Assembly (NCBI RefSeq): GCF_002557795.1
Contig: NZ_CP023777.1
Span: 4,597,001-4,661,000, forward strand
Source of the DNA: Chitinophaga caeni
Lineage (GTDB): Bacteria > Bacteroidota > Bacteroidia > Chitinophagales > Chitinophagaceae
Reading direction: 5' to 3'
Length of the DNA stretch: 64,000 nt
The notes beneath the pieces were generated by a model. The model made no database searches, was not told the DNA's origin, and saw only the letters and a list, made by a program, of their open reading frames with translations. Of this stretch, positions 15,516 through 59,447 are shown piece after piece (position 1 is the stretch's first letter; each line of letters opens with the position of its first letter). Position numbers and translations under genes: made by a program.

Positions 15516-15835
15516 GATTGTTGTCCGACAAAATTTTAACCGGGGAGCAATTTGATCCCTCGATAGTTCGATTCAATGTTCACCTGCTCCTTTCTTGTAC
15601 TTTTTTGCTTGCCCAAAAAAGCACCAAAAAAGGGCATAAATTGTCCATTACGGCCACCAATTTGATCGCTCGACCTGGCCTTGCTACTACTGTATGGCCA
15701 AGCTACCCTTCGCTATCAACAGTGCGAAGTTCCACGGTTCTCTTGGCGGGGGGTGAATGTATCATCCTTCCCTTACATCCTTGACCAGGTAAGGAATTCA
15801 AGTACCTTTAAAGCATCTTTAGCCGGACAACAATG
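15516..15835 (+). mobile_element. MITE-like element, copy 1
   Basis: This 320-bp element is one of six related copies. The left end reads GATTGTTGTCCGAC and the right end, in reverse complement, CATTGTTGTCCGGC, both variants of the family terminus. It is flanked by ATAATAAAT (15507-15515) and ATTATAAAT (15836-15844), a 9-bp target duplication with one mismatch. No transposase is encoded. It belongs to subfamily A with copies 2, 3 and 6, sharing the GGGGAGCAATTTGATCCCTC segment near the left end. It sits directly upstream of the YceI gene. Confidence 0.88.
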
Positions 15836-16073
15836 ATTATAAATGATGATAGTACTCTTGTTAATATAAATAACTTTTTACCCAAGCGATTTGTTAGGCA
15901 TTCAAATATATTAACAAGAATAGCTAATGCAGCAGTATAATGTAGTTAAATTTCCACTAAAATAAAAAATTGACAGTTACCTGGTGACCAGCCCGGCAAA
16001 AAGCATCCGCCATGGTACCAGCCTCCAAGAAATTACAGGTTGAATATACATAGGGATTAACCGGCAGTTTCGA

Positions 16074-17645
16074 TCAAAAAAATAATTGTAATGCCGCATT
16101 TAAATTGAAACGCTCTTTGCCCGGTGTTGATAACACGGTCCTCGATATGCCACCACCCGGCAACTGCCCTTCTTTAACGGAAAATTGATAGTTTGCGCCC
16201 AGCTTTAGACCAACATGGACAGTCTTCCCGGTAAGAAAACTATACTGCAATTGCCCCCCGATGCCCATAATATCCGAAGCATTGTAAATATAGTCGTGAT
16301 AAATAACGTACTGTTCGAAAACATTCTCGCTGGAACCGGGCATAACAAATGTTTGATCTAAAACATAGCGGTACATGAGGCTCAAATCGTAACCCAAGCT
16401 TCTGCCGGGTGCCTTCAAGCAAAATTGTTGTCCCCAGGTTAGGTTTCCAACCAGGTGATCGTATGCAAGCACGTTTCCATATAACCCGTTTTTCTTTGAA
16501 TCGGAATTATACCGGACACCTACGCTCATATTATTAGTTTTATGTAGATTGGAGCGTGATCTTCTCACCGTTAATTCATGGTTTATAATTTCGTTAATGG
16601 TGATATTACCGAGGTATTTAAATAGGACGAAATCCTTCCCGTATAACATTTTCATATTATAATTTACTGACAAGTTCGTACTGGAATCTTGCCGGTACAT
16701 ATATAACAACCCGAGGTCATTATAATCCACACCGTAATAACTCAATTCATAAGGATCGATACTGGAACCGTACCAGGCATAATCTTGCTTTTCATGGGTA
16801 TATTCGAAATGCCCTAATGCGCGGTGGTGGCCTTGTTGATACTCGGCATATAAGCCGAACCCGGAACGTCTAAAATCGGTTTGGTAGCTGCGGTTGTTGT
16901 TATGCCAAAAATCATATTCATAACCTATAAATAGCCTGTTATTATAATCGGGATAACGGGTACTTTGATAATAAGCATCCTTCTTAAACCCGATAGCGAT
17001 CTCTTCTTTCCCGTATCCACCCCTGTACCCTGCACCGATCTTCAGCTTATCATCCAATAATTTATAACCGAGCGTAGCATTTATATCCATCTGAAAAGTG
17101 GCGATATCTGCTCGTGGATCATTATTACTAAAATGTTTGCCGATTTTGTAATCAAAACCAATAGCCAAGGGCAAGTTTTTACCGGTTAAATTTTTATACG
17201 CATTTGCTTTGAGATCATACACGGACCTTTCATAATGATTGTATTTCACCGATCCGAAAGCGTATGGCGCCGTTGGGTTATCCCTGGATTGCTGGGTCAT
17301 GCGGGTACTATCTTCCAGGACCTTTGTATAACTAAACGATCCGAATAGTTTAAATCCCGAGAGTTCCGTTATCCCTTCGCTCGAAGCCTGCACCCGTTTA
17401 ATATTGGTTGCATCGCGGGCGTCCATCAATTTACCGTTGACTATATTTCCTTTAATAATTGCTTGGCTGTACTTAGTAGGCATTAATTCTTCCATCCAAA
17501 AAGCGTGATCACGGGCTAATCGGTAGGCATTCCAGCGGGTTGAATCCGCCGCTAAACGAAAGTCTCCGGGAATATCTTGGCCTATAACAGCCAGCGAAAA
17601 TAATTCAAATACACAGAGGAGATATACTATCCGGCGCATCTTCAA
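16074..17645 (-). CDS. DUF6850-family outer membrane beta-barrel protein
   Basis: The protein has 523 residues with a signal peptide (about 1-22, ending AVIGQ). After about residue 80 it is rich in alternating aromatic strands (LKANAYKNLTG, LFIGYEYDFWHNNN, FGLYAEYQQGHHRALGHFEY) and ends FNLNAALQLFF, the terminal Phe expected of an outer-membrane barrel. The early RDHAFWMEELMPTKYSQA segment fits DUF6850. It is the third gene of an operon with a TonB-dependent receptor and a DUF4876 lipoprotein, a set that recurs in Bacteroidota. The cargo of the receptor system is unknown. A 12-bp inverted repeat lies directly upstream of its start. Confidence 0.82.
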   Translation of the reverse strand: MKMRRIVYLLCVFELFSLAVIGQDIPGDFRLAADSTRWNAYRLARDHAFWMEELMPTKYSQAIIKGNIVNGKLMDARDATNIKRVQASSEGITELSGFKLFGSFSYTKVLEDSTRMTQQSRDNPTAPYAFGSVKYNHYERSVYDLKANAYKNLTGKNLPLAIGFDYKIGKHFSNNDPRADIATFQMDINATLGYKLLDDKLKIGAGYRGGYGKEEIAIGFKKDAYYQSTRYPDYNNRLFIGYEYDFWHNNNRSYQTDFRRSGFGLYAEYQQGHHRALGHFEYTHEKQDYAWYGSSIDPYELSYYGVDYNDLGLLYMYRQDSSTNLSVNYNMKMLYGKDFVLFKYLGNITINEIINHELTVRRSRSNLHKTNNMSVGVRYNSDSKKNGLYGNVLAYDHLVGNLTWGQQFCLKAPGRSLGYDLSLMYRYVLDQTFVMPGSSENVFEQYVIYHDYIYNASDIMGIGGQLQYSFLTGKTVHVGLKLGANYQFSVKEGQLPGGGISRTVLSTPGKERFNLNAALQLFF

Positions 17646-17653
17646 TTGAATTA

Positions 17654-17693
17654 GTTAAGCCTATACCGATCACCACCGGGATATAGGCTTAAC
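17654..17693 (-). promoter_or_regulatory. Intra-operon hairpin before the DUF6850 gene
   Basis: A perfect 12-bp inverted repeat, GTTAAGCCTATA / TATAGGCTTAAC, with a 16-base loop fills most of the gap between the DUF4876 stop and the DUF6850 start. No T-run follows, so it is more likely an RNA stability or attenuation element than a simple terminator. Confidence 0.5.
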
Positions 17694-17718
17694 AGTTGAT
17701 TTTTATATAATGATAATC

Positions 17719-19068
17719 TTATTTAAACCCTAGCGGCGTAGCCACTTCGAAATAATCGAAATCGACGGTAGAGTTATTCGTGTCCTGGAGAATGGTTCTA
17801 CCATTCACCGTTTTAGCTGTTTTCCTAATAACGGACTGCGAGCTATATTTCCCTGCCGGCGCATAAGTATAACCGGCGTCCAAACTAGCTTGCAGCTTTT
17901 TCGGAATCAAGTCGCTCACATCATTTGGCATCACCTCCACCCCATCTATGATGTATGCCACCGGTAATTGAATCCTCACCTTGCTTGTTGCAGTCGGCGG
18001 CGTTATGGAAGGATCATTATAAGCCGGTAGCTTGCCCGCATCTTCACCGCCGGGCATTTTGAAGATTACGTAACTATCGCGGCCGAGGTTATCCAAAATC
18101 CATTCTGTAGCATCGTATTTTACCACGCGCAAATTAGTTACGCCGGGATTATCCAAATCGTAAGCGGCTTTATTACCGCCGTTGGCAATTACCGCATCCC
18201 CGAGGTAAGCTTCAAAATCGGCCTGTGATAAATCTACCGTTAATTCAGGCTTATTGACACTGTAATCTTTCCCATTATCATCTGTAAAAGGTTGCTTGTG
18301 GTTGATACCGGTAGATGCTATCAACAATCCTTTACCGGGCGCAACGGGATACGTTGTACCATTACCGGGAATCATGAACAGGTCCCTCATGTAAACATAG
18401 TCCTTGTTAGCATCGATACCGGTTGGCATGTTCAATGATTTTGTCCAGTCAAATTGGCCGTTAGCATCGTTTACAAGGTAATATTTATAGCCGCTACTTG
18501 GAGTTTGAAGCCCCCACAAACGGGAGATATACAAGCTATCGGCATACAATGTATCGTTGCTATTATTATAAACTTCGATGAACTGGTCACGGAAGCTGGC
18601 GCCATCCTTCAAATCCGAGCCTGCGTAATAAACTTGTTTTATAACCCAATCACCAACTTTACCGGGTACCAAGCTCAATTGCACTTTAGAAATATTGGTA
18701 GCAGCATAAATATTAACATTGTTGCCTACCGCGTTAAAAACTACGGAATCCTTTACAGACACACCGGTTTTTGCCAAATAAGCGGCCGGGGATACTTTAA
18801 ATACGGCAGAGATATTATACAGCCCTGCATTGACCTGGGGGAACAAAGCAGCCCCGGACGCATCCGTATTAGCGTAAATAGGTGCGCCACCATTTGTATT
18901 TGTTAAGGCCACTTCAATATTTTCTACAGGGAAACCGTAATCCTTATTATCAGCATCAAAACTAAGCTCCACGGTTAAGTCGATCGGCCTAATAGAAGGA
19001 GCATCATCCTTACGGCAGGCAACCAACCAGGCAATACTAAATAAACACAGGGTAGCTATTTTTTTCAT
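17719..19068 (-). CDS. DUF4876 lipoprotein
   Basis: The protein has 449 residues from ATG 19068; a TTG three codons upstream is less likely. The lipobox is AWLVACRKDDAP. The N-terminal part (about 30-120) is a beta-sandwich like a prealbumin/CNA-B domain (VENIEVALTNTNGGAPIYAN, DASGAALFPQVNAGLYNISA). The rest fits DUF4876, with KQVYYAGS, RDQFIEVYNNSNDTLYADSLY and a long beta-rich end. The gene lies 42 bases after a TonB-dependent receptor and before a DUF6850 barrel. It is probably the surface or periplasmic partner of that receptor; the ligand is not known. Confidence 0.85.
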   Translation of the reverse strand: MKKIATLCLFSIAWLVACRKDDAPSIRPIDLTVELSFDADNKDYGFPVENIEVALTNTNGGAPIYANTDASGAALFPQVNAGLYNISAVFKVSPAAYLAKTGVSVKDSVVFNAVGNNVNIYAATNISKVQLSLVPGKVGDWVIKQVYYAGSDLKDGASFRDQFIEVYNNSNDTLYADSLYISRLWGLQTPSSGYKYYLVNDANGQFDWTKSLNMPTGIDANKDYVYMRDLFMIPGNGTTYPVAPGKGLLIASTGINHKQPFTDDNGKDYSVNKPELTVDLSQADFEAYLGDAVIANGGNKAAYDLDNPGVTNLRVVKYDATEWILDNLGRDSYVIFKMPGGEDAGKLPAYNDPSITPPTATSKVRIQLPVAYIIDGVEVMPNDVSDLIPKKLQASLDAGYTYAPAGKYSSQSVIRKTAKTVNGRTILQDTNNSTVDFDYFEVATPLGFK

Positions 19069-19110
19069 TTCTATCAATATTTATAATTTGTAACAGGTTA
19101 ATGATTATGA

Positions 19111-21900
19111 TCAAGGTATTTTCCAAACCAGTTCTGCTCCGAAAGTCGGTCTGCCGTTAGGAATGCGGGCATCCGTAGATCCTTCGATGCGGAATCTCGG
19201 CCTGTAATTAAAAAAGTTGTACACGTTAAATGACAAGGTGATATTCTTTAAAATATCCTTGCTGATATTCGCATGGAAATTGCTATAAATTGCGGGCTGA
19301 TCACTATTGCTCGACTTCACATTATCCGTACGTAGCAGGTGCATCATATCCGGATCTGCCGGATCAAAATTTTTCACTTCGAAATACCTGCCGTCTGCCG
19401 TGTAGTATGCGATAGGTACACCGCTATAGCCGGGTGTGCTATTCTTATCGATGAGATCGAAAGTTCCGGTAAATCTTATCATCAGCCTCAATTTGGGGAA
19501 GTGGGTGTTAGTTGACAACCTTCCGCGGCTTTGAACATTTATGGTACGGCCATTTTCATATACCCCTACGGTTGCGTAATCCAAATTCTCGGGTTGATCA
19601 TTCGTATATGAGGTTGATTTAAGACCTTCTTTCGTTAATTCCGAACGCGTTATTCCTAATGCGGCGTTCAAAGTTGTAGCGATGGCATCGAACTTAGGGA
19701 AAGCCATCATCAGTTCTAACCCGGTATTCTTGGATGCCAGGTTATTTTCCAACGAATAATAACTAACCTGGGTATTTAAATATTCCCCTGTAGGCGTAAG
19801 GTTAGGCTTTGTCCCGGCTTGTTCTTCAACATTATACTTGGGCAAATGGAGGAACTTATACCGTGTCTCGGTACCGAATCCATTCGTACTATTCTTATAG
19901 AAAGCATTCAGCGTGAAGTTGTAACCGTTTTTATGATAAGATAGGTTCAGTTCCGTAGTGAATGATTTCATCGGCTTAATATCCTTAGGCTCCTGGTCGT
20001 AGCGATCGGTGTACAGTAAATACGTGCTGGTGCTTTCATTTCCCGTGAAATGAATAACGAGCGGGATATCAAAGAATACCGGGCCGGGGTATAGCTGTCC
20101 CAACCCCGGGGCTTTAGAAGAAAAGCCCAAGGCTAAACCGAGGTCGAAATTACCCGATAATTTGTAACGGAAATTAGACCGGGGATTCAACACTTTATAC
20201 TTGTTCTGCAAATCCAACCTCAGGCCGATACTAGAACTTAAAGGTTTGCCCAGGATATAAGTAATGAATCGATCTTCTAGATAAACACCACCATCTTTTT
20301 GAGGATAGATAAGTGAATAATCGTAATACCTTTCAGATAAGCCGGCTTTACTATTAAAATTCACATTAGCCTGTGCCCTGGGAAGTGCCGGGTCAAACAA
20401 TTGCCCCCTTCCCTTATTTGCAGAATAGTTAAAATTCCCGCCGTATGTGAAGCGGTGTTTTAAGTTACCGGTATAAAATTCTGTATTGAAATCAAGGCTT
20501 GCCGTATAATTGATAGGCTTACCTTCAATCATGGAAAGTGAAGTGTATTGGCCGGGACCGAAATTCCCTTCATGAATGCCTGGACTAGTTTCCAAGGTAT
20601 AAAGGGTAACGGGTTTATTTACATATTCTTCGGTGGAGGTAACTTGTTCACCATAGCTCAAGCGCATATTCAGGCTGGCGCTTTTCATGAAATTTTTATT
20701 TACATTGAACAAGAGGCGGTTTGCGACGGCAAAGTTCCAGCTATCGAAACGGGCTGTTTTATCCAATTCTTCATCCGGATCTTTCTTAACACCATCGAGG
20801 AACTTGCTATAATCAAGTGAAAAGGTGTTTTTCACTTTTTCATCCTTACCGAAATACTTGGTCCACATCAAGTTTGTTGTCAAACGTTTATATGCTTTCA
20901 GTTTATCACGGTTATCCATAAACGAACTGGTGTAGTTGGCACCGATGTTCAATGCCCCGAGGTTGTTTTTCAGATGAAACCCCTTGGAGAAGCCGTAATT
21001 ACTGGCATTATCCCGAAGTTGTGTCCTGATATATAAAGGGGAATATCCCGCTTGGCGCTCAATGATAACGGCGCCATCGGTCATTTCCCCATACTTGGCG
21101 GAAGCAACGCCGGAGATTACTTCTATTTTACTGATGTTCTCGGTAGGTATCTGCCTAAGATCTATGCCGCCGAAAGTATTATCCCCCGAATATGAATCCG
21201 TATTCCCAACACCTACGCTACCACCTGTTGTCACAACCGCGCCAGATAAACCTGTAGCGGATCTTAGGGGGTTGCGTGATTGCATGTTGGCATTGTTGCT
21301 AATAAGGTTACCATCCATGATAATGGCAATACCGAAGGCGTTATTCAGACCGTAATCGCTCCTGCCCGTATTCGTAGCGGTCGGGGCAATTCTCAGGTTG
21401 AGGTTTTGGACATTCTGTAAAGAAGGCGGTGTGAACTTCTGGTTGGGCAGCAGGTTCAACAGGTCGCTAATACTCAGGGCCGGTGTTTGCTCGATAACAT
21501 CACGATCGATAACGATGGCGCTATTGGAAATGCTTTTACCACTTTCGGGGCTTACCTTGATTTCTTTCAGCGAGAGGTTCAGCTCATACATCCTAAAAAC
21601 GACCAGTTGGTTCAACAGATCGCCCACGATAATCGAATCCTTGGCTGTTTGCATACCGATCCTGCTGAATAGCAAGTTAAGGCGGTCACCTTTCCTCGCG
21701 TTCAATGGCAAGGTAAAAACACCGTTTTCGTCGGCGGTAACACCATTCTTGGTTTCTTCGATAACTACTGTAGCAAAGGATACCGGCTTATTGTTGCCGT
21801 CGATGATCTTACCTTTTAACTGGAAAGTTCCTGATTGAGCCCGTGTAACAGTGCTGTTGCCCAAAAGCAAGAGCAGGCAAATACTAGCTAATAATCTCAA
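19111..21900 (-). CDS. TonB-dependent outer membrane receptor
   Basis: The protein has 929 residues. The start is a TTG (21900) preceded by AAGAGG at a suitable distance; no in-frame ATG lies before the upstream stop, so a non-AUG start is likely. A signal peptide (about 1-21, ending VTRAQ) is followed by a carboxypeptidase-regulatory-like domain (about 28-105, KGKIIDGNNKPVSFATVVI), a plug (about 115-280, with ISDLLNLLPNQKF and SGVASAKYGEMTDGAVII) and a barrel. It lacks the SusC signature VVVGYG and no SusD gene follows, so it is an ordinary receptor rather than a glycan importer. It heads the operon with DUF4876 and DUF6850 genes. Confidence 0.92.
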   Translation of the reverse strand: MRLLASICLLLLLGNSTVTRAQSGTFQLKGKIIDGNNKPVSFATVVIEETKNGVTADENGVFTLPLNARKGDRLNLLFSRIGMQTAKDSIIVGDLLNQLVVFRMYELNLSLKEIKVSPESGKSISNSAIVIDRDVIEQTPALSISDLLNLLPNQKFTPPSLQNVQNLNLRIAPTATNTGRSDYGLNNAFGIAIIMDGNLISNNANMQSRNPLRSATGLSGAVVTTGGSVGVGNTDSYSGDNTFGGIDLRQIPTENISKIEVISGVASAKYGEMTDGAVIIERQAGYSPLYIRTQLRDNASNYGFSKGFHLKNNLGALNIGANYTSSFMDNRDKLKAYKRLTTNLMWTKYFGKDEKVKNTFSLDYSKFLDGVKKDPDEELDKTARFDSWNFAVANRLLFNVNKNFMKSASLNMRLSYGEQVTSTEEYVNKPVTLYTLETSPGIHEGNFGPGQYTSLSMIEGKPINYTASLDFNTEFYTGNLKHRFTYGGNFNYSANKGRGQLFDPALPRAQANVNFNSKAGLSERYYDYSLIYPQKDGGVYLEDRFITYILGKPLSSSIGLRLDLQNKYKVLNPRSNFRYKLSGNFDLGLALGFSSKAPGLGQLYPGPVFFDIPLVIHFTGNESTSTYLLYTDRYDQEPKDIKPMKSFTTELNLSYHKNGYNFTLNAFYKNSTNGFGTETRYKFLHLPKYNVEEQAGTKPNLTPTGEYLNTQVSYYSLENNLASKNTGLELMMAFPKFDAIATTLNAALGITRSELTKEGLKSTSYTNDQPENLDYATVGVYENGRTINVQSRGRLSTNTHFPKLRLMIRFTGTFDLIDKNSTPGYSGVPIAYYTADGRYFEVKNFDPADPDMMHLLRTDNVKSSNSDQPAIYSNFHANISKDILKNITLSFNVYNFFNYRPRFRIEGSTDARIPNGRPTFGAELVWKIP

Positions 21901-22175
21901 CGTTGACCTCTTAAATTGTTCTAAAATGCTGGATGAAGGGCATAAGATGTAAAATTATTTTATATGTTAAATGAATCTTAATCGAATCGGGAAAAAAAAT
22001 AATCCAAAAAGGAATACTTCCCCGTCTTGGGGTCAAGAATCCATTAAAAACCTTATTTTAAATTTTTAATACAACATTTTCTACACATAAAAAATACCCA
22101 CTTGTAAGTAATGAAACACTCCCAGGTTGGTTGTATCTTGAAAGCCCGTGTAGATAAATAAAACTTATGTGACCT

Positions 22176-22940
22176 ATGGAGGTAGTACAATTCAAAGACT
22201 TAGAAAAAATCTGGAAGAATATTTCCCAACATGTTAACCGCCCTACTTATAAAAGCGAACAATCTGTTTCCCAACAAATACTGAATATTTTCCAAGTCGG
22301 AGACTTTTATTATTTCATCTTTAATACCCAGAATGCACAGGTTGAATACGTTGACCCAAACGTGGTCAAAGTGCTGGGATACCCGGCAGAAGACGTATCC
22401 CCGGCCTTCTTCTTTTCTGTTATCCACCCGGAAGATCAACACTGGTTCGTCAATTTCGAACATACCGTCGTAGAGTTTTTCCAACAACTCCCCCCCGACC
22501 AGGTGCTGAATTATAAAGTGCGCTACGATTTCAGGCTCCGCAAGAAAGATGGCACTTATATACGCATCCTGCAACAGGTGGTTACCTTATTAGCCGATGA
22601 AAAAGGTCTAGTAATGAAAACCCTGGGCGTACATACGGATATTACGGAACTGAAACCAAGCGGTAGGCCGGTGCTTTCTTTTATAGGCATGAACGGGGCG
22701 CCTTCATATGTTGATGTCGAGATTAAAACCGTGTTTGTTCCAAACAAGGAACTAATTTCTCCCAGGGAAAAACAGATACTGACCCTCCTTATAGAAGGTA
22801 AAACAAGTAAAGAGATAGCCACAATCCTGGGCAATACGAAACAAACCGTGGATAAGCACCGGAAAAATATGTTGATGAAGACCGGGGCCAAATCTTCGGC
22901 AGAACTCGTTGTTAAAGCGGTCAAGGAAGGTTGGATATAA
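22176..22940 (+). CDS. PAS-LuxR-type transcriptional regulator
   Basis: The protein has 254 residues. An N-terminal PAS fold (about 45-165) includes VEYVDPNVVKVLGYPAEDV and the PAC-like DFRLRKKDGTYIRILQQVV. A C-terminal LuxR/GerE helix-turn-helix (about 188-250) reads LISPREKQILTLLIEGKTS, then KEIATILGNTKQTVDKHRKN. It lacks a receiver domain and has no membrane segment, so it is a cytoplasmic one-component sensor. It is divergent from the TonB receptor operon across 275 bases and may control it, although no clear operator was seen. The start follows a short AT-rich leader; an upstream TATCTTGA is only a weak -7 match. Confidence 0.88.
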   Translation: MEVVQFKDLEKIWKNISQHVNRPTYKSEQSVSQQILNIFQVGDFYYFIFNTQNAQVEYVDPNVVKVLGYPAEDVSPAFFFSVIHPEDQHWFVNFEHTVVEFFQQLPPDQVLNYKVRYDFRLRKKDGTYIRILQQVVTLLADEKGLVMKTLGVHTDITELKPSGRPVLSFIGMNGAPSYVDVEIKTVFVPNKELISPREKQILTLLIEGKTSKEIATILGNTKQTVDKHRKNMLMKTGAKSSAELVVKAVKEGWI

Positions 22941-23003
22941 CCGGAACCGGCTAAATTATTTGAAATCAACAAGAATTAATGCATCTTTACAAAAATTGTA
23001 TCC

Positions 23004-24209: not shown

Positions 24210-24220
24210 GTGATAAAAAA

Positions 24221-24254
24221 GCCGGTAAGTCCTCTTTACGGGCGAATTACCGGC
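24221..24254 (-). terminator. Terminator-like hairpin in a 321-base gene-free stretch
   Basis: A perfect 8-bp stem, GCCGGTAA / TTACCGGC, with an 18-base loop lies 11 bases after the efflux gene. The T-run is on the minus strand, so it fits minus-strand transcripts better than the upstream gene. The rest of 24210-24530 is AT-rich. Only a weak -7-like TTTCTTTG just before the metallo-hydrolase start stands out. Confidence 0.55.
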
Positions 24255-25337: not shown

Positions 25338-25430
25338 CGCTAGTGGTATATAACATTCTATACTATTTCCCTTGATATAACCTTTGATAAAGCACTACAT
25401 ATTTTATATGCAGCGATGCAAGTCCTTGTA

Positions 25431-31564: not shown

Positions 31565-31574
31565 TATAATAAGT

Positions 31575-31887
31575 CATTATTGTCCGACTAAATTTTAACC
31601 GGGGAGCAATTTGATCCCTCAATAGTTCGATTCAATGTTCATCTGCTCCTTTCTTGTACTTTTTTGCTTGCCCAAAAAACGAGTACCAAAAAAGGGCACA
31701 AATTGGCCATCACGGCCGCCAATTTGATCGCTCGATCGAGCTTTTGTACTACTGTATGGCTTCCCTATCAACGGTGCGAAGTTCCACGGTATTTTTGGCG
31801 GGGCTGAATAGAATCATCCTTCGTTTATATCCTTGACCAAGTAAGAAATTCAAGTACATTGAAAGCAATTTTAGCCGGACAATTATG
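31575..31887 (+). mobile_element. MITE-like element, copy 2
   Basis: A 313-bp copy of the family, subfamily A. Ends are CATTATTGTCCGACTAAA at the left and, in reverse complement, CATAATTGTCCGGCTAAA at the right. Flanks are ATAATAAGT (31566-31574) and ATTATAAGT (31888-31896), a 9-bp duplication with one mismatch. It lies between the barrel gene, 10 bases after its stop, and the AraC gene. Its short open frames differ from those of the other copies, so it is noncoding. Confidence 0.88.
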
Positions 31888-32272
31888 ATTATAAGTAATA
31901 ATTAAAACAACGATTTGAAAGTATCAACTGCACTATGATTGCGGTATTATTAAAACGAATCGAAAAAACAAATACGGATAACCGTAAAAGTCACTTGTAA
32001 AACCCTTGCAAGTGACTTTTCATCACTTACAACAGAGGCAATTCGAATAGCTAAGAAGCAGTAGTACAGCACTTTTCACCGATTAACATCTACTTAACAA
32101 AACGAACTATACAACTTGTCAAAATAATTCCGAAATTGAACTCGAATTAAACATTACGTCTAACCGAGTTAACATAAACTGTTTGGCTGACCCAAAAATT
32201 AATAGATACAAAATCTAAGAATCGAGACATAAACGAATCAAGATTACTGTCAATGTCAAACTCGTGTATAGT
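31888..32272. other. AT-rich intergenic region after MITE copy 2
   Basis: About 385 bases with no convincing gene. It holds one strong bidirectional terminator (31986-32020) and otherwise AT-rich sequence ahead of the AraC gene, where no clear TAnnTTTG box is visible. Confidence 0.6.
31986..32020. terminator. Bidirectional terminator
   Basis: A perfect 12-bp stem, AAAAGTCACTTG / CAAGTGACTTTT, with an 11-base loop and T-runs on both sides. It probably ends the BCCT-Usp-barrel transcript beyond the inserted element. Confidence 0.85.
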
Positions 32273-33834: not shown

Positions 33835-34575
33835 ATGACAAAATTAAAGAAAATTGCCCTAGTTACCGGCGTTAGCCGTGGATCCGGTTTAGGATTTGCC
33901 ATGACAAAGGATCTTGCAAACCTCGGTTATAAAGTTATTATAACTTCCCGTAAAGAAGAAAATTCGGCATCATTGGCCCGCCAACTTAAAGACTTGCAAC
34001 TGGATGTGGAAGCAAAAGTACTGGATGTTACTAATCGTGACCAAATACAGTCCCTCGTTGATTGGATAGCAGCTCATTTCGGTAAGCTCGACCTACTCAT
34101 CAATAATGCCGCGATACTGGATATCCAGTATACGGGTATTGATAAAACAGATCTTGATTTTGTACAACAGGAGATCAATACCAATTTCATCGGCGCCTGG
34201 GCCATGATAAAATATTGTACCCCGCTGTTAAAGCAGAGCGAACGCGGGATAATTCTCAATATTTCAAGCGGGATGGGAGCTTTTCATGATAAGGATATGG
34301 GATTACTTAATTTCGATAAAGCCACTATCCCAAATTATTCACTCTCCAAGTTGATCATGAACGGGTTAACTGTAAAAGCTGCGAAAGACTTAAAGGATGA
34401 TGGCATCCTCGTAAATGCAGCCTGCCCTGGCTTTACAGCTACTTACGAAGCATTCGTTGCTATGGGCGCCCGACCTATAGAAGAAAGTTTACCCGGTCTT
34501 ACGTGGGCTGCTACGCTGCCTGATGGAGATAAGAGCGGCCAATTTTTCCGTGATAAGGAATTACTACCCTGGTAA
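33835..34575 (+). CDS. SDR-family oxidoreductase
   Basis: The 246-residue product is a classical short-chain dehydrogenase. The Rossmann cofactor loop is TGVSRGSGLGFA (about 12-23), the NNAA motif lies near residue 90, the catalytic Ser is in ILNISSGMGAF, and YSLSK (about 176-180) gives the Tyr and Lys. PGFTATYEA is the usual C-terminal cofactor segment. A basic residue after the glycine motif (ITSRKEENS) fits NADPH preference. It is divergent from an HxlR regulator and probably under its control; the substrate is unknown. A mobile element inserted next to its stop codon, so its original 3' region has changed. Confidence 0.92.
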   Translation: MTKLKKIALVTGVSRGSGLGFAMTKDLANLGYKVIITSRKEENSASLARQLKDLQLDVEAKVLDVTNRDQIQSLVDWIAAHFGKLDLLINNAAILDIQYTGIDKTDLDFVQQEINTNFIGAWAMIKYCTPLLKQSERGIILNISSGMGAFHDKDMGLLNFDKATIPNYSLSKLIMNGLTVKAAKDLKDDGILVNAACPGFTATYEAFVAMGARPIEESLPGLTWAATLPDGDKSGQFFRDKELLPW

Positions 34576-34583
34576 TTCATTAA

Positions 34584-34904
34584 CATAATTGTCCGACTAA
34601 AAATACTTTAAAGGTACTTGAATTCCTTACCTGGTCAAGGATATAAGCGAAGGATGATATATTCACCCCCGCCAAGAGAACCGTGGAACTTCGCACCGTT
34701 GATAGCGAAGGCTAGCTTGGCCATACAGTAGTAGAAAGGCCAGATCGAACGATCAAATTGGTGGCCGTAATGGCCAATTTGTGCCCTTTTTTCGTGCTTT
34801 ATTGGGCAAGCAAAAAAGTGTACAAAAAACGAGCAAATGAACAGTGAATCGAACTATTGAGTGATCAAATTGCTCCCAGGTTAAAATTTAGTCGGACAAT
34901 AATG
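34584..34904 (-). mobile_element. MITE-like element, copy 3
   Basis: A 321-bp copy, inverted relative to the others, subfamily A. It is flanked on both sides by the perfect 9-bp duplication ATTCATTAA (34575-34583 and 34905-34913). The first copy of the duplication begins at the last base of the SDR stop codon. Ends are CATAATTGTCCGACTAAA and, in reverse complement, CATTATTGTCCGACTAAA. Noncoding. The 184 bases from here to the next gene show no further feature. Confidence 0.92.
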
Positions 34905-35088
34905 ATTCATTAACTTATAGTCACCTGTATAATTTTTACCCTTCGGTTGTGGTTACCAGCCTACAACCGCGGAACTTACTGTACCCAGTTTGCGATCTCG
35001 TAAACACCGGTTATAAAGCTAAGATGGCCTTGACGGCACGTTTTTTGTGAATCTTGGGGATTTAGATTACTAAAATTTAATTAACCCG

Positions 35089-36593: not shown

Positions 36594-36815
36594 CGTTATT
36601 GTACGGCAAAATTTTCAATGAAAAAATTATCATCGCCTCAAAAGTTTGATTCAATGTCCACCAGCACATTTCTTTTCACTACTGTATGCTTCGCTATTAA
36701 CAGTGCGAAGTTCCACGGTTTTATTGGCTGGGCTGAATAGATCATCCTTCGCTTATGTCCTTGACCAGGGAAGGCATCCAAGTAAATTTAACGCAATTTC
36801 AGCCGGACAACAATG
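36594..36815 (+). mobile_element. MITE-like element, copy 4 (internally deleted)
   Basis: A 222-bp relic of the family. The left end, CGTTATTGTACGGC, has mutated; the right end in reverse complement is CATTGTTGTCCGGC. The middle third, which carries the main hairpin in the other copies, is missing. No clear 9-bp duplication remains. It belongs to subfamily B with copy 5, sharing TGAAAAAATTATCATCGCC near the left end. It ends 2 bases before the stop codon of the convergent DUF3037 gene. Confidence 0.82.
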
Positions 36816-43522: not shown

Positions 43523-44387
43523 AACATTTATTTTAGGTTGATAAAGGATGTGTAAAGCGAATATTATATATGCATATCAATTATTTTCAGTAAAGCAAAA
43601 AAAATCCCTACGCGAGATATTAGCATAGCTCGCTTGCTTGTAAACATGAACATCAGTGAAGCATTTTTTTACAACCTGGCATACCACTCCCCTCAAGTGC
43701 TACCGGTCACTATATGCTGCTACCTTTACAGTCTTATAAATTGGCTATATGTTTGAAAACTAGGACTTCATATTCATAAACATCTGTTTTTCATTAATGA
43801 ACTGCTAAATCGTTTTTGCAAATGATCCAAACAATTTTTAAAGATCTATGGTTAAAAATCGGCCGTATAAGTTCATACTAAAAGCCATCATTATATTCCA
43901 GAGGGGAATTAAGCCCTTATGGTAATAATGAATGTAAAACGTTACGGGAATTGATCAACGTGGAATCAATGCACAATTTGTTTAGCTACCTTATTTTAAA
44001 ATTTTTTGTGATTTTACTGCCGGAATAAGCAATCATTTAACGCGGATAACTTATCCCAGCTTGACATTGGTTTAACATTTACAACCGTTTTTCAATTTTT
44101 GGCTAATCATAATTACATCACAACAAGACTGGATTTCGGCGGATAAAATACCAGCTTTCAAACGTGAACATGTATCAATTTACTAATTCTCACTGCAATA
44201 ACTCATCATATAACTATTATATCATTCGATGATATTGATATCAATGATGAATAAGCGTATTAAACACAATATACATAGTTTTTCAATTTTTTTATATCAT
44301 GATTAGTTTTTTTTCTGGAGAATGTGTAAATCTTTTATTTGTCAGAACATATAAATGTACCGGGACTATCTTTTACATATATAAAAC
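43523..44387. other. Long AT-rich intergenic region upstream of the second susC
   Basis: About 865 bases contain no supported gene. A 12-bp palindrome, ATTGATATCAAT (44234-44245), is present. No clear TAnnTTTG box faces susC. The 3' end adjoins mobile-element copy 5. The length suggests a large regulatory leader or the remains of a lost gene. Confidence 0.5.
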
Positions 44388-44692
44388 CATTATTGTCCGA
44401 CTAAATTTTCACTGAAAAAATTATCATCGCCATCAAAAGTTCAATTCAATGTCTACCTGCTCATTTCTTGTACTTCTTTGCTTGCCCAAAAAAGGTACCA
44501 AAAAAGACACTAATTGGCCATGACGGCCGCCAATTTGATCGCGCGATCTAGCTTTTCTACTACTGTATGGCTTCGCTATCAACAGTGCGAAGTTCCACGG
44601 TTCTCTTGGCGGGGCTGAATAGATCTTCCTTATATCCCGGGATAGGAAAGGATTTCAAGTACATTTAAAGCAATTTTAGTCGGACAACAATG
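44388..44692 (+). mobile_element. MITE-like element, copy 5
   Basis: A 305-bp copy, subfamily B. It starts CATTATTGTCCGACTAAA and ends, in reverse complement, CATTGTTGTCCGACTAAA. A perfect 9-bp duplication, ATATAAAAC, flanks it (44379-44387 and 44693-44701). This copy and copy 6 define the element ends most clearly. It lies just past the end of the recB gene. No transposase. Confidence 0.93.
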
Positions 44693-44729
44693 ATATAAAA
44701 CTAAATCAGGTATTCCTTATTTACCGGGG

Positions 44730-51364: not shown

Positions 51365-51380
51365 AATAAATGTTCGTAGC

Positions 51381-53162: not shown

Positions 53163-53319
53163 ATTTTTAAATCGATCTTGAGATCGAAATGTACGAAATT
53201 TTCCGCGGGTGTGATTTGTTGGGACCAGGTCACTACCTCCCTAAAAATATACCCCAATCGTAAAAAGTTCCGTATATATTTATTGATATGCGCGGCGGAA
53301 AGCAGGGGAACATCTTGCC

Positions 53320-54081
53320 CTACAGTACAACACCGCCCGATACTTCAATTCTTTGAGCATTGATCCAATGCGCGGCGTCACTACACAAAAAGGCCACAAC
53401 CGGACCGATATCTTCCGGTAACCCTACCCTTCCCAATGCTGTTTGAGAAGCAATTAACGCATTTACATCTTTGTTATCGCGCACCGTGCCTCCACCGAAG
53501 TCTGTTTCGATGGCCCCCGGCGCTACCACGTTTACGTTGATCTTCCTAGCGCCCAATTCTTTTGCCATGTATTTGGTCAATGTTTCAACAGCGCCCTTCA
53601 TTGTTCCATAAGCGGCATATCCCGGCATACAGAACCTGGCCAAGCCCGAAGATAAATTCACGATATGGCCCCCGTCTGCAACCAGGCTCAACAAGGCCTG
53701 GGTTAAGAAAAATGTGCTTTTCAGGTGGATGTTAACCAAGGTATCGAATTGTTCTTCCGTTGTTTCAGCAAAGGAAGCATGTATGCCGACACCGGCATTA
53801 TTGACAAGGGAGTGAAACTCCATGGCATCCCAATACTTGCTTAAAGCTTCGGAAACTTGCGTTTTAAAAGAGAGGAAACTCTTGATATCCGCAACATCGA
53901 GTTGCAAGATCACAGCTTTTTGTCCCAGGTCGTGTACGGCAGCTTGGACTTCTTTTGCTGCTTTTTCATTACTGTGATATGTAAAGATGATGTCATGTCC
54001 GTCTTTGGCCAAGCTCATTACCATATCTTTTCCTAAACCGCGGCTACCACCGGTAACCAGGGCAATCTTTTGTTTACTCAT
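53320..54081 (-). CDS. SDR-family oxidoreductase
   Basis: The 253-residue product has TGGSRGLGKDMVMSLAKDG at about 10-28, LQLDVADI, NNAGVGIHASFAE, the catalytic Ser in NLSSGLARF and YGTMK (about 156-160) for the Tyr and Lys. The C-terminal ending is NAQRIEVSGGVVL. A Ser/Asn pattern after the second strand (YHSNEK) fits NADPH. It lies 65 bases after a short AraC-type regulator on the same strand, which is likely its controller. The substrate is unknown. Fabric-type annotations should be treated as general. Confidence 0.92.
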   Translation of the reverse strand: MSKQKIALVTGGSRGLGKDMVMSLAKDGHDIIFTYHSNEKAAKEVQAAVHDLGQKAVILQLDVADIKSFLSFKTQVSEALSKYWDAMEFHSLVNNAGVGIHASFAETTEEQFDTLVNIHLKSTFFLTQALLSLVADGGHIVNLSSGLARFCMPGYAAYGTMKGAVETLTKYMAKELGARKINVNVVAPGAIETDFGGGTVRDNKDVNALIASQTALGRVGLPEDIGPVVAFLCSDAAHWINAQRIEVSGGVVL

Positions 54082-54146
54082 AGCTAAATATGTTTTTTAT
54101 ATATCGCAAAATTAGAATTGGTACGATTAAAAAAATGGTGAATACG

Positions 54147-54533
54147 TCAGATTTTAGCCAACTCCACGTGTTTCCTGAAATTCAAGGGGGTAATTCCTAC
54201 CATACCTTTGAAAAACTTGGTAAAATTGCTCGGATCGGAAAACCCGAAACGGTTACCGATATCTGCTACCGGCATTTTTGTCTCTTTCAGCATCCGTGAA
54301 GCTTCTTCAATAATCCTGCTTTCCATCCATTCACACGGCGATTTGCCGGTGGTCAAAGTGATGGTATTCGTTAAATGCCTAGCCTGGATATAGAGCATCT
54401 TGGCAAAATCTTTCACGGAAAACCTTTTTTCCGCTTTTAGTTGCTGCAATTCCGATAGGTGCTCTTCCATTAGGTTCATAAAAGATGTCGTAATCTCTGC
54501 TTGCCGATTTGATATGTAATTAGGTAGTATCAT
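54147..54533 (-). CDS. Short AraC-family regulator
   Basis: The protein has 128 residues from ATG 54533. The frame continues 46 codons upstream, but that extension is not protein-like, and the start MILPNYISNRQAEITTSF matches short AraC proteins of this type. A helical linker (EEHLSELQQLKAEKRFSVK) leads into the double helix-turn-helix (about 40-125), with FAKMLYIQARHLTNTITL in the first and PVADIGNRFGFSDPSNFTKF in the second. There is no sensing domain, so it may respond through another partner or by abundance. Located directly upstream of the SDR gene. Confidence 0.85.
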   Translation of the reverse strand: MILPNYISNRQAEITTSFMNLMEEHLSELQQLKAEKRFSVKDFAKMLYIQARHLTNTITLTTGKSPCEWMESRIIEEASRMLKETKMPVADIGNRFGFSDPSNFTKFFKGMVGITPLNFRKHVELAKI

Positions 54534-54939
54534 ATGCCTATCTTTTTTACGGATGTAGACCGGGAAACCGTGTATCGAACTACGCCTTTCACGGTTGATA
54601 TCCCGGCGGGGTAAGCCGGGAACAAGGTAATCAATGCTGTGAACGTCGCTTTTAAATTCAAGGGATCTCAAAAATCCATTTCAAAGTATTAATTACCGCG
54701 TCTATTCCCTGTTAAGTATTTGATTTTAAATTCGTTTCCATACCAATTTCCCACTAACTAAGATATTGAACGATTCCCAATTTTATTCCCAATATCTAAT
54801 ACCATTTTCCCTTCTAAGTAGTCGAACGAAACCGGTTTATATTGTAGTTTGCAAGGAATCTACAATTCCATGACATTTGCAGGAATAATAAATTAGTTAT
54901 ATATTTACATTATACTTCATATATTTTCATCCCAATACC

Positions 54940-55557
54940 ATGAAAACTATTTATTTAAGATATTTATTGCTTTGCTTAACAGCGTTGGCATCCTGCACCA
55001 AGGCTGATATTATTGGCCCCCCGGGTGGCGGAACCCCTCAAATTGACGGTAATTTAGAATGGGTATATTTAAAAAGTCAATCGCAAACTAGTATTGAAAA
55101 TGAAGGGAGTAAAATGATCGTCGAGATGAAAGGCGAAGGGGCAAACTTTTCCGGTACCAATACCGTAACCATGTCTAATGGGAAGTTTACTTCCTCGCAA
55201 TTTACATATGACTATACTTATACACTGGTTTCCAAGACCTATTTTGATAATGAATTGTTTTATGCCGACAGTGTTTCCGATGTTGGTCCATACAATGCTA
55301 TGGCAGCGACGATGGATTATACGATGAAAGGAAAGGATTCGATTATTTTGCATAACCCGGAGATGTTTATATCGCAAACGGGTTACTCTTACAATTCAAC
55401 CGAACCAATCGATCTTAAGGGTATATATTCCTGGGATAATGATGTAATTACCATTACCGGGATGATGGAAGGTATTCTAAAAAGCAATTACCCCGGTGAG
55501 GAAGACCTACCGGTTTATCTTCATAACGAGGTGACCATGCGTTTGAAACGTAAATAA
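54940..55557 (+). CDS. Unknown lipoprotein
   Basis: The 205-residue product has a lipoprotein signal with the lipobox LTALASCTKAD (Cys19). After a Gly/Pro-rich linker (GPPGGGTP) the rest is beta-rich and resembles a small lipocalin-like or barrel sandwich (FSGTNTVTMSNGKF, FTYDYTYTLVSKTYF, NNEVTMRL-type strands), with no family I can name. It is a single gene with AT-rich flanks, 135 bases ahead of a flavin reductase gene. The function is unknown, probably periplasmic or surface. Confidence 0.72.
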   Translation: MKTIYLRYLLLCLTALASCTKADIIGPPGGGTPQIDGNLEWVYLKSQSQTSIENEGSKMIVEMKGEGANFSGTNTVTMSNGKFTSSQFTYDYTYTLVSKTYFDNELFYADSVSDVGPYNAMAATMDYTMKGKDSIILHNPEMFISQTGYSYNSTEPIDLKGIYSWDNDVITITGMMEGILKSNYPGEEDLPVYLHNEVTMRLKRK

Positions 55558-55767
55558 ACTTTTTGCTTGCTGTATAATGTACTTCCTATCGTAGCATGAA
55601 CTCATAAACGGTTCAATCGTTTAATTATTTAATGGGGCGGTTCTGCTAAAATACTTCTTCATCTTACAACTATAACTCATATCTAGGTAATTATGTCCCG
55701 GATTTTTTATTTCGGGGTGAACTCATCGCTTTGCAGGTTGTTGAAATTCTATAATACAATCCTGTAT

Positions 55768-56328
55768 ATGAAAAATGTTTATAGAAAAACAGCATTCCCG
55801 GTAGATCAAGCCAGGACTTACTTGGAACCGGGCCCAATTGTATTGGTTAGCAGTCAATATGGGCAGAAAAAAAATGTTATGACAATGGGATGGTATACCG
55901 TTATGGAATTTAATCCATCCTTGGTGGGATGCATGATTACCGCCGCCAATGATAGCTTCGAATTAATTCGTAAAAGCGGTTGCTGCGTTATCAATCTGCC
56001 CACCTACTCCATGATTGAAACAATTATTGGAATAGGAAACGATCATGGCTCTTCTGTTGATAAGTTTAAAAAATATCAATTAAAATATTCAGATGCTCAT
56101 ACGGTTGCTGCACCGGTATTAGACGACTGTTATGCCAACTTCGAATGTCGCCTGTACGATAAGAAATTGCTTAACACTTATAATTTCTTCATATTCGAAG
56201 TAACTTATGCTGCGGTCGCAAAATCCCCCAAATATCCTCAAACGGCACATTACCGGGGCAGTGGCTTATTTATGGTTAGCGGGGAAACGGCATCTTATAA
56301 AAAATTATTCAAGCGTAAAGATTTATAA
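55768..56328 (+). CDS. Flavin reductase-like protein
   Basis: The protein has 186 residues from ATG 55768. The longer frame from 55693 begins with an improbable hydrophobic leader and was rejected. The split-barrel flavin-binding fold is shown by PGPIVLVSSQYGQKKNVMTM, then GWYTVMEFNPSLVGCMI, SGCCVINLPTYSMIETI and FIFEVTYAAVAKSPKYPQT near the end. Members bind FMN and reduce it with NAD(P)H, often for a partner monooxygenase. No partner is adjacent. It lies between two unrelated genes, with a tandem repeat array downstream. Confidence 0.87.
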   Translation: MKNVYRKTAFPVDQARTYLEPGPIVLVSSQYGQKKNVMTMGWYTVMEFNPSLVGCMITAANDSFELIRKSGCCVINLPTYSMIETIIGIGNDHGSSVDKFKKYQLKYSDAHTVAAPVLDDCYANFECRLYDKKLLNTYNFFIFEVTYAAVAKSPKYPQTAHYRGSGLFMVSGETASYKKLFKRKDL

Positions 56329-56395
56329 TTCCCATTTTCTCCTTTCGCGGGTACATTTTTGGTATCACGACGCTCCTTATTAAACTATTTTCCCT

Positions 56396-56443
56396 ATTAA
56401 TCAAGGAATTAACCCCTTTATTAATCTCCTTGTTAATGGGTCT
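56396..56443 (+). repeat. Four-unit 12-bp tandem array
   Basis: Four successive 12-base units start at 56396, 56408, 56420 and 56432, each beginning RTTAAY (ATTAAT, ATTAAC, ATTAAT, GTTAAT). A further TTAA lies 17 bases upstream, at 56380. The array is inside a 385-base gap ahead of the GH92 gene. Phased copies on one DNA face and a half-turn (12 bp) pitch suggest an operator cluster. The remainder of the gap shows no gene; the short open frame at 56514 overlaps the GH92 start region and is not supported. Confidence 0.5.
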
Positions 56444-56713
56444 CCCTTTTATTTGCAAGCAGATAATTTTATGCTACCATTGATTCCACTTATGATGAAA
56501 AGGCAAAAGTTTCATGACCGCGAAAGATCTTATTCAACAGACCTTAACGGGAAAAATGCTGCACAACCATAAAAAAATATTACTTCGAATAACATTTTTA
56601 TGTGCTAGCGAACTTCTTTTCATTACATTTCGCCCGGAATTCCCGGCACAGTTAACAAATTGTGACCGGGAACATTACCGGGTTTCCAGTTCCAGATTTC
56701 TATTAACCAAATT

Positions 56714-58966
56714 ATGTATCAGAACTTAATTAAACACAGCAAAGTTGTATGCCTAGGGTTATTATTCTTTACAAACTTCCATGCTGCAAAAGCCCAAAAT
56801 CACCTAGGGAAAGGAAATTTACAATACGTAGATCCCCGGATCGGGAATGTTGGGCAGCTCCTGGTTCCAACGCGCCCTACCGTGCAACAACCCAACCAGG
56901 TGATCAGGATGTACCCATTAAGACAGGATTACCTTGATGACAGGATCAAGGCCTATCCCTTAACAATTGTTTCCCACCGGCTGGGAGAGGCTTTCAGTAT
57001 CAAACCCGTTTCGGGGGAAGTGAGCGCCGCAAGCTGGAAAAAGGCACTACCCTATGATCATGACTTGGAAATTACACGGCCCTGGTATTACGAAGCCTGG
57101 CTTGTCGATGAAGAAATAACGGTAAGGTTTACCCCTGGCAAAAAAGCCGGAATTTTTGAATTCGAGTTTGATAAAACCGGGGACGCCTACCTATTATTCC
57201 AATTACTCAACGGGAAGAAAGGCTCTTATTCTTTCCAAAATGATTCAGTATTAACGGGTATGGAGATTTACCATGATGATATACCGATTTATCTCTACGG
57301 TGTCTTCAACCGGCAAGTGATAGCCGGGACATTGCAAAATAACCAGGTAAAAATGCTCAACCACGGGGAATCAGCCAACAAATTAGTTGTAAAACTAATG
57401 GCAGCGCAACCTCGGCAGCTCAGTTTTAAATATGCTATTTCCTTTATCAGCGCGGAACAGGCTAAGCAAAATTTCGAGGAAGAGCTGCATGGAAAGAACT
57501 TTAAAAATTTATATACAGAGGCTGAAAATGCTTGGGATAATGTGATTAACCAAATAGAGGTCAGCGGTGGAACAGTGGCGCAGAAACGTTCATTCTACAC
57601 CGCGCTATACCGTTGTTATGAACGCATGGTTGACATTACCGAAGATGGTCGCTATTATAGCGGCTATGACAAAAAAGTTCATAATTCTGAAGGGAGACCT
57701 TTTTACGTTGATGATTGGACTTGGGATACTTACTTGGCGCATCATCCGTTAAGAACATTATTGCATCCGGGACAAGAAGAAGACATGCTACAATCATTTG
57801 TAAAAATGTACGAGCAAAGCGGCTGGATGCCTACCTTCCCGGTATTGTTTGGAGATCATGCATGCATGAATGGGTTTCATAGCACCGTAATGTTTTTGGA
57901 TGGCTACCGCAAAGGATTAAGAAATTTTGACAGGGAGAAAGCATTCGAAGGTATGTTGAAAAATGCCGAAGAAGCAACCATGCTACCATGGCGCAATGGC
58001 CCCAAAACGGGATTAACAGATTTCTATCATCAAAATGGCTATTTCCCGGCATTACATCCGGGTGAAAAAGAAAGCAATCCATTGGTGCATCCCTTCGAAA
58101 AAAGGCAAGCCGTGGCGGTAACATTAGGTCATAGTTATGACGATTGGGCATTGGCTTCGTTCGCGCAGGAAATCGGCAGGCAGGATACCTATAAAAAATA
58201 TATCCGCAGGGCCCAAAACTATAAAACCTTATGGAAAGCTGATCAACAACTTTTCATGCCTAAAGATGAAAAAGGTCAATGGATTAATATAGATCCTAAA
58301 TTTGATGGCGGCATGGGGGGCAGGGATTATTACGATGAAAATAACGGTTGGACATACCTTTGGCAAGTGCAACAGGACATTCCGGGTCTCGTGGAATTAC
58401 TAGGTGGTAAAAATGGATTTGAAGCTAAGCTGGACCAGCTGTTCAGGGAGGGTCTTGGCCGTTCTAAATATGAATTTTGGTCGAAATTCCCGGATGCAAC
58501 CGGTTTAGTTGGACAATATTCCATGGGCAATGAGCCAAGCTTTCACATTCCTTACCTGTACAATTTCACGAATGCCCCATGGAAAACACAACAACATATC
58601 CGTTTCCTATTAGACACCTGGTTCAAGGATAATATTTTCGGAATCCCCGGAGATGAAGATGGCGGTGGAATGACAGCCTTCGTAGTATTTTCTTCCTTGG
58701 GATTCTATCCCATTAGTCCGGGCATGCCTATTTATACATTAGGCAGTCCATTATTTGAATCATCGACGATACGATTAGAAAATGGCAAACAATTCAAAGT
58801 GATTGCGCACCATGCATCGAAAGTTAACAAGTACATTCAATCCGCTAAATTGAACGGAAAAGAATTAAAAACTCCGTTCATCAATCATCAACAAGTGATG
58901 TCCGGGGCCGTACTTGAGTTGGAGATGGGCCCGAAACCCAACAAAGATTGGGGGATTACAAACTAA
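56714..58966 (+). CDS. GH92 alpha-mannosidase
   Basis: The protein has 750 residues with a signal peptide (about 1-27, ending AAKAQ). The GH92 N-terminal beta-sandwich begins YVDPRIGNVG. The catalytic (alpha/alpha)6 domain carries YVDDWTWDTYLAHHPL, GNEPSFHIPYLYNF and the signature GDEDGGGMTAFVVFSSLGFY, then PISPGMPIYTLGSP. GH92 enzymes are calcium-dependent exo-alpha-mannosidases acting on alpha-1,2, 1,3, 1,4 or 1,6 linkages; which one is not clear from the sequence. The gene converges on the GH99-like locus, and the pair suggests breakdown of alpha-mannan or N-glycan. Confidence 0.93.
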   Translation: MYQNLIKHSKVVCLGLLFFTNFHAAKAQNHLGKGNLQYVDPRIGNVGQLLVPTRPTVQQPNQVIRMYPLRQDYLDDRIKAYPLTIVSHRLGEAFSIKPVSGEVSAASWKKALPYDHDLEITRPWYYEAWLVDEEITVRFTPGKKAGIFEFEFDKTGDAYLLFQLLNGKKGSYSFQNDSVLTGMEIYHDDIPIYLYGVFNRQVIAGTLQNNQVKMLNHGESANKLVVKLMAAQPRQLSFKYAISFISAEQAKQNFEEELHGKNFKNLYTEAENAWDNVINQIEVSGGTVAQKRSFYTALYRCYERMVDITEDGRYYSGYDKKVHNSEGRPFYVDDWTWDTYLAHHPLRTLLHPGQEEDMLQSFVKMYEQSGWMPTFPVLFGDHACMNGFHSTVMFLDGYRKGLRNFDREKAFEGMLKNAEEATMLPWRNGPKTGLTDFYHQNGYFPALHPGEKESNPLVHPFEKRQAVAVTLGHSYDDWALASFAQEIGRQDTYKKYIRRAQNYKTLWKADQQLFMPKDEKGQWINIDPKFDGGMGGRDYYDENNGWTYLWQVQQDIPGLVELLGGKNGFEAKLDQLFREGLGRSKYEFWSKFPDATGLVGQYSMGNEPSFHIPYLYNFTNAPWKTQQHIRFLLDTWFKDNIFGIPGDEDGGGMTAFVVFSSLGFYPISPGMPIYTLGSPLFESSTIRLENGKQFKVIAHHASKVNKYIQSAKLNGKELKTPFINHQQVMSGAVLELEMGPKPNKDWGITN

Positions 58967-58991
58967 ACATATTTTAACCAGGGAGAAAGAA

Positions 58992-59099
58992 AGGTTGCCT
59001 CAAAAGTAATCTGAAGGGCTTGAGAATTGCGTAAACGAAATTCCTCTCCATCAGGTGTACCCGAATAAAATCGGGCAAAAGTTACTTTTGAGGCAACCT
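58992..59099. repeat. 18-bp inverted repeat
   Basis: AGGTTGCCTCAAAAGTAA (58992-59009) and its exact complement (59082-59099) enclose 72 bases, followed by TCTTTTC. It may be a terminator for GH92 or a tiny relic of an insertion element, since ends of this GGTTGCCTCAAAA type occur in some Bacteroidota transposons. No target duplication was evident. Confidence 0.55.
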
Positions 59100-59128
59100 C
59101 TTTTCTAAATTCTTTACCTAAAAAATAT

Positions 59129-59447
59129 CATTATTGTCCGACTAAATTTTAACCGGGGAGCAATTCGATCCCTCGATAGTTCGATTCAATGTTTATCTGC
59201 CCTTTTCTTGTACTTTTTTGTTTACCCAAAAAAGCACGAAAAAAGGGCACAAATTGGCCATTACGGCCGCCAATTTGATCGCTCGATCCGGCCTTTCTAC
59301 TACTGTATGCCCAACCTACCCTTCGCTATCAACAGTGCGAAGTTCCACGGTTCTCTGGCGGGGGGTGAATGTATCATCCTTCGCTAATATCCTTGACCAG
59401 GTAAGGAATTAAAGTACCTTTAAAGCATTTTTAGTCGGACAACAATG
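59129..59447 (+). mobile_element. MITE-like element, copy 6
   Basis: A 319-bp copy, subfamily A, used here as the type example. It starts CATTATTGTCCGACTAAA and ends, in reverse complement, CATTGTTGTCCGACTAAA, an 18-bp terminal repeat with one mismatch. A perfect 9-bp duplication, AAAAAATAT, flanks it (59120-59128 and 59448-59456). It contains hairpins CAAATTGGC / GCCAATTTG (59250-59258, 59269-59277) and CTTCGC / GCGAAG (59321-59326, 59337-59342). Noncoding. Confidence 0.93.

Follow-up and report, generated by a model that had tools for sequence, protein, structure and literature searches.

MIC231 of Bacillus is a non-autonomous element served in trans by an IS4-family transposase; its host, ends and interior differ from those of the element described here. 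In the consulted parts of PMC4596501, BrickBuilt of Porphyromonas gingivalis is described with 19 copies, ends similar to those of an IS5-family element and irregular duplications, and 10 to 20 copies are given as typical for bacterial MITEs. REP/BIME sequences with RAYT, a class treated in PMC3733652, are palindromes of 20 to 40 bp with a GTAG or CGTC tag and have neither inverted ends nor a target duplication. The REP/BIME class was rejected for the element of this study on account of its length, inverted ends and duplications.

The window, a 64-kb stretch of DNA (positions 4597001 to 4661000 of the single 5.28-Mb contig of Chitinophaga caeni), contains six copies of a non-coding, MITE-like element of approximately 320 bp with inverted 18-bp ends (CATTRTTGTCCGRCTAAA). 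All six copies of the original prediction were recovered with their coordinates, orientations and common ends.

MITE copy 1, 15516 to 15835, plus strand: 320 bp, 9-bp flanks at 15507 to 15515 and 15836 to 15844 with one mismatch
MITE copy 2, 31575 to 31887, plus strand: 313 bp, 9-bp flanks at 31566 to 31574 and 31888 to 31896 with one mismatch
MITE copy 3, 34584 to 34904, minus strand (inverted): 321 bp, perfect 9-bp duplication ATTCATTAA at 34575 to 34583 and 34905 to 34913
MITE copy 4, 36594 to 36815, plus strand: internal deletion and degraded left end, matched by the profile in two pieces (model positions 2 to 81 and 166 to 319)
MITE copy 5, 44388 to 44692, plus strand: 305 bp, perfect duplication ATATAAAAC at 44379 to 44387 and 44693 to 44701
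MITE copy 6, 59129 to 59447, plus strand: 319 bp, perfect duplication AAAAAATAT at 59120 to 59128 and 59448 to 59456
Motif inside copy 6, 59208 to 59251, plus strand: approximately 43 bp, two interlocked potential stems

With up to three mismatches allowed, the 18-mer end was found at 12 sites in the window, compared to 0.17 expected from shuffled sequence. The six copies account for eleven of these sites, with copy 4 contributing one end because its left one is too degraded to be counted, and the remaining site is isolated (58504). The three perfect duplications and the two with one mismatch were confirmed, while no 9-bp duplication is visible at the flanks of the deleted copy 4. Among the window's five near-full copies, copy 5 has diverged furthest (14.5% from the consensus). 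The high density noted earlier holds in so far as these five copies exceed the 1.8 expected per 64 kb from 48 copies in 1.74 Mb, but it is not extreme (Poisson P about 0.03, calculated by hand for a window chosen after the fact).

Copy 6 served as DNA query for the genome searches and gave at least 44 BLAST matches in its own genome (40 of 150 candidates scored). The exact 13-mer end TTGTCCGRCTAAA occurs 165 times in the genome and its reversed control once. A profile search of 2.05 Mb of sampled sequence yielded 147 non-nested matches, among them 109 near-full copies of 287 to 347 bp. Forty-eight of these are located within the contiguous 1.74 Mb from 3,540,001 to 5,279,921, which was included in full; sampling of the first 3.54 Mb relied on exact ends and best BLAST hits, and copies with damaged ends are under-counted there. 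Extrapolated from the contiguous stretch, the genome would harbor about 146 near-full copies. The copy lengths cluster near 309, 320 and 332 bp, in steps of approximately 11 to 12 bp. In line with the earlier observation that none of the copies encodes a transposase, the longest stop-free run in the consensus of the 109 copies is about 100 residues, too short for a transposase in any frame.

The 9-bp sequences flanking the copies are identical in 51 of the 109 near-full copies and differ at a single position in 31 more, which brings the number of copies with no more than one mismatch to 82. In comparisons of left flanks with the right flanks of other copies, this level was reached in 1.6% of cases (192 of 11,772), and flank lengths of 7, 8, 10 or 11 bp gave no comparable peak. 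Three or more mismatches were found in 20 copies, which are decayed, rearranged or were never duplicated. The duplications of the 82 copies have a G+C content of 5%, compared to 34% in the DNA 12 to 60 bp away, and show a preference for A at position 1 (62 of 82), T at position 2 (61), A at position 8 (53) and T at position 9 (59). In the next 40 bp of flanking DNA, more than 70% identity was observed in three of 5,886 copy pairs on the left side, all from one tandem array, and in none on the right side; alignment past the ends of the element was therefore not found among dispersed copies. The element is thus short and non-coding, with terminal inverted repeats, a fixed 9-bp duplication and dispersed copies in unrelated flanks, the array being the sole exception. 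These duplications and flanks, together with an empty site in relatives, support the original prediction of a MITE inserted via transposition.

The empty site was found for a copy at genome positions 4740463 to 4740757 (duplication TAATTTTAT), which is located in a 326-bp gap between two genes. Three relatives (L270, L271 and L273) have this gene pair side by side, with approximately 36, 36 and 9 bp from stop to start, and no end-like sequence within two mismatches of the 13-mer was found at these loci. This is the one orthologous site examined; 26 of the 29 relatives' loci were uninformative, with the upstream gene missing in the fetched stretch. The MITE itself was found in none of the 78 other genomes of the genus (up to nine candidates scored per genome), and among 58 relatives searched initially there were two partial matches, of 38 and 49 bp. 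No MITE match was obtained in the phages and plasmids searched, nor did an exact pattern of 37 bases from the MITE interior match among named genomes, a set that possibly excludes the own genome.

The transposase family, left unnamed in the original prediction, could be assigned via IS elements of relatives as IS4 with a DUF4372 domain. The relatives search detected DUF4372 (PF14294) in 11 of 58 other genomes, and 24 of 79 genus genomes contained matches to the transposase protein of one DUF4372 IS (0 to 21 matching pieces per genome, fragments included). Many such matches were seen in G097 (21, mostly pieces at contig ends) and G093 (12). The IS elements of the genus have ends CAYTNTTGTCCGRSTAAA spaced 1,390 to 1,421 bp and are flanked by 9-bp duplications, for example ATTTTTTAT, ATTAAAAAT and ATTAATTAT. 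The duplication is perfect at L070 to L073, L077, L083 to L085, L087, L089, L090, L092, L107 and L112, several of these loci being one element fetched twice, and has one mismatch at L086. Among more distant loci it measures 9 bp at L094 and L110 and 10 bp at L096. Two end-like sites without duplication were found at L091, L108 and L109, and no complete end pair at L088, L093, L095, L097 to L106 and L111, some of which are fragments or contig ends. The proteins of L073 and L086 match the NCBIfam IS4 model (NF033592) with 220 and 222 bits (cut-off 115) and carry both PF01609 and PF14294. The transposase gene is a single open frame in L072, L073, L086 and L089 and is interrupted in L070 and L071. 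No paper joining DUF4372 with the IS4 family and none on MITEs (term spelled out) in Chitinophaga was found in the literature.

IS and MITE are alike in the duplication length and in the AT-rich form of the target (compared by eye for the IS). A large excess of the end sequence TTGTCCGRSTAAA is confined to the own genome, with 79 + 90 sites compared to at most nine in any of the 78 other genus genomes. Compared with 11 of these IS elements, the MITE aligned in the terminal 12 to 30 bp, while elsewhere only matches of 12 to 17 bp at chance level were obtained. Since the likeness is confined to the terminal 30 bp or so, the MITE did not arise from one of these 11 elements by internal deletion. 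Among the elements found, none was autonomous with both the MITE ends and a MITE-like interior. Judged from the matching ends, duplication and target, the MITE was probably moved by a transposase supplied in trans; in principle, its ends could be served by a related transposase.

A full-length element with the same type of ends and a transposase is thus present in relatives, but no such parent IS was found in the own genome, where the original prediction had placed an unseen mobilizing element. In the whole genome, neither a DUF4372 domain nor a match to the related IS4/DUF4372 transposase was obtained at E ≤ 0.001. PF01609 matches two genes in the 5.28-Mb genome (L061 and L062), which were rejected as mobilizers, as they are of the IS982 and IS1182 type and have no MITE ends within 1.5 kb. 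PF01610 genes were not found. In a scan for end-like pairs (up to four mismatches, sampled 39% of the genome), two pairs at IS-like spacing outside MITEs were discarded, with no matching 9-bp flanks and with frames that are not the transposase.

It is very probable that the copies represent a MITE swarm, which was mobilized in trans by an IS4/DUF4372 transposase and amplified in one lineage, and which has been decaying since the transposase was lost. An IS4-family DUF4372 transposase acting in trans would recognize the 18-bp ends CATTRTTGTCCGRCTAAA and would insert the element at cuts with a 9-bp stagger in target DNA consisting solely of A and T (AT-W5-AT); joining at such cuts would leave the 9-bp duplications. 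A single lineage of the genus would then have amplified the MITE to roughly 150 copies, and with the transposase now absent, the copies would decay as intergenic DNA. The family of the mover, amplification within the lineage, the end of activity and the total of about 150 copies are all probable on the basis of these comparisons.

The sole part of the element that may be new in kind is the interior motif (GTWCTTTTTTG-CTTGCC-CAAAAAAGWAC-CAAAAAA-GGGCA), the second stem of which pairs the loop with the downstream arm and interlocks with stem 1, similar to an H-type pseudoknot. In the own genome, the motif pattern has 34 matches, and all ten of those listed are inside MITE copies; a stem-based scan of the sampled genome gave no motif outside MITEs (70 other hairpin matches, judged by eye). 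Without MITE ends, the motif recurs in other Bacteroidota and a Nitrospirae MAG (L299 to L307, L311, L315 to L327). An order-wide search gave matches in 13 of 395 other genomes, restricted to MITE positions of approximately 65 to 122 (two candidates scored per genome), and the strict pattern with up to three mismatches matched three of 395 phylum genomes, including the own genome. Among named genomes, the exact pattern was found in 13 stretches: a single Nitrospirae MAG has five, Xanthocytophaga flavus has four, and four Bacteroidota MAGs have one apiece; 11 of the 13 are located outside stop-free frames of at least 110 codons. A BLAST match of 91% lies in a stretch of an Ilyobacter plasmid that is gene-free by annotation, one of six places there. 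The exact pattern was found in no viral contig, and a degenerate pattern gave no match over the gathered loci. Either the distribution of the motif is patchy or the search pattern was too narrow. At several loci (e.g. L299, L301, L304 and L307), another hairpin follows the motif, and after it a tail resembling CTTTTGTACTACTG, as in the MITE (by eye). At two loci, opposite-facing copies of the motif, or of similar sequences, are located approximately 300 to 350 bp apart, as if bounding a small element.

Locus L304, about 1500 to 1800 (by eye): pair of opposite-facing motifs
Locus L322, 2003 to 2045 and 2313 to 2354: pair of opposite-facing motifs

Pairing in the two stems was counted in 28 sequences, namely 30 loci minus L310, L306 and L312 (repeats of L300, L314 and L305, respectively) plus the window copy; an earlier locus list selected on pairing was left out. 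Anchored parsing succeeded for 25 of the 28, with L314, L064 and the window copy unparsed; in the window copy, part of stem 1 has decayed, as judged by eye. The variable length of stem 1 puts stem 2 out of register in the MAFFT alignment, and counting was done instead on four outer pairs per stem. For stem 1, 90 of 100 cells were formed, compared to a mean of 67 and a maximum of 81 with shuffled partners (2,000 shuffles), and for stem 2, 92 of 100, compared to a mean of 80 and a maximum of 88. The pairs are not kept in L308 and in part not in L313, L303 and L327. These compensatory changes are suggestive of covarying stems in sequences that are few and partly related, with most positions fixed in the 13 pattern loci by the pattern itself. 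Rfam gave no match in the window, and for L001 and nine motif loci (E up to 1) the matches were far below the gathering scores, save a tRNA in L323. Nothing on the 43-bp motif was found in titles and abstract openings of the literature. It is doubtful, albeit conceivable, that the MITE is a vehicle for a captured, independent and widely scattered structured element. If so, the motif could represent a mobile or regulatory nucleic-acid element not described so far, which was amplified piggy-back in the MITE. Of all leads, this motif alone might open an unexpected direction.

The covarying stems in other bacteria would also fit copies that are retained as functional repeats (structured RNA, terminator, protein- or DNA-binding site), for which transposition was the mode of spread; this is improbable. 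According to a crude gene finder, all 48 near-full copies of the contiguous stretch are intergenic; the neighboring genes are co-directional for 22 copies, convergent for 15 (three in one array) and divergent for 11, and convergent intergenic sequence makes up 18% of intergenic bases. The consensus can fold stably, at −93 kcal/mol for one strand and −102 kcal/mol for the other (without shuffle control). Gene avoidance, however, is expected from selection against disruption, and the consensus fold of the MITE alignment (83 of 109 copies) is weak, with −5.6 and −8.1 kcal/mol and little covariation. Rare substitutions are found throughout the element and are mildly uneven (mean 2.25, variance 4.3 per column), and no Rfam family was matched.

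A still-active family, recently mobilized by a transposase of the own genome that the searches missed, is very improbable, even though the ends are well conserved and perfect duplications are kept in 51 copies. The two most similar of the 109 copies share 97.4% identity without counting gaps, which leaves every pair below 98%; the whole genome has no match to the related transposase, and neither its PF01609 genes nor the two IS-spaced end pairs of the sampled 39% qualify as a source. The distance from the consensus has a median of 7% and a minimum of 2.8%, with a mean pairwise identity of 85%. The duplications with at most two mismatches (89 copies) show 0.51 differences per 9 pairs, approximately 2.8% per site and branch. 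Since the elements have diverged more than the duplications, several sub-families might predate the insertions. The divergence of the copies and the missing transposase point to a finished burst, in contrast to the recent mobilization suggested in the original prediction. That the repeats are segmental or tandem duplications instead of transposon insertions can practically be dismissed, as the flanks of dispersed copies are unrelated and most copies carry their own 9-bp duplication, while the array at 3612340 to 3613595 (L145; three copies and a partial fourth, 76–77-bp spacer), the one case in favor, has common flanks only within itself and, with units 94–96% identical, is a tandem duplication after insertion.

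The element is of an ordinary kind, in a population unusually large and old. The MITE family is genuine, with a great many old copies left orphaned, and the transposase family has been identified. The element offers a clear example of a bacterial MITE population of very large size (approximately 1.8 near-full copies per 64 kb) that has outlasted its transposase, and the comparison assigns the CATTRTTGTCCGRCTAAA ends to IS4/DUF4372 elements. Now that the transposase family has been identified along with a target rule and one empty site, the duplications can be used to measure how fast the burst, the loss and the decay proceeded. The MITE shares the 18-bp ends, the 9-bp duplication and the AT...AT target with the IS4/DUF4372-PF01609 elements of the same genus (L070, L072, L073), which in contrast are approximately 1.4 kb long, carry a transposase gene and show no likeness to it beyond chance inside the terminal 30 bp or so. 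As far as BrickBuilt of the same phylum is characterized in the consulted parts of its description, both elements are short and non-coding, with inverted ends as in a full IS and no transposase remnant, whereas the MITE of C. caeni differs in its 109 near-full copies sampled, its regular 9-bp duplications and a genome in which no such IS was found.
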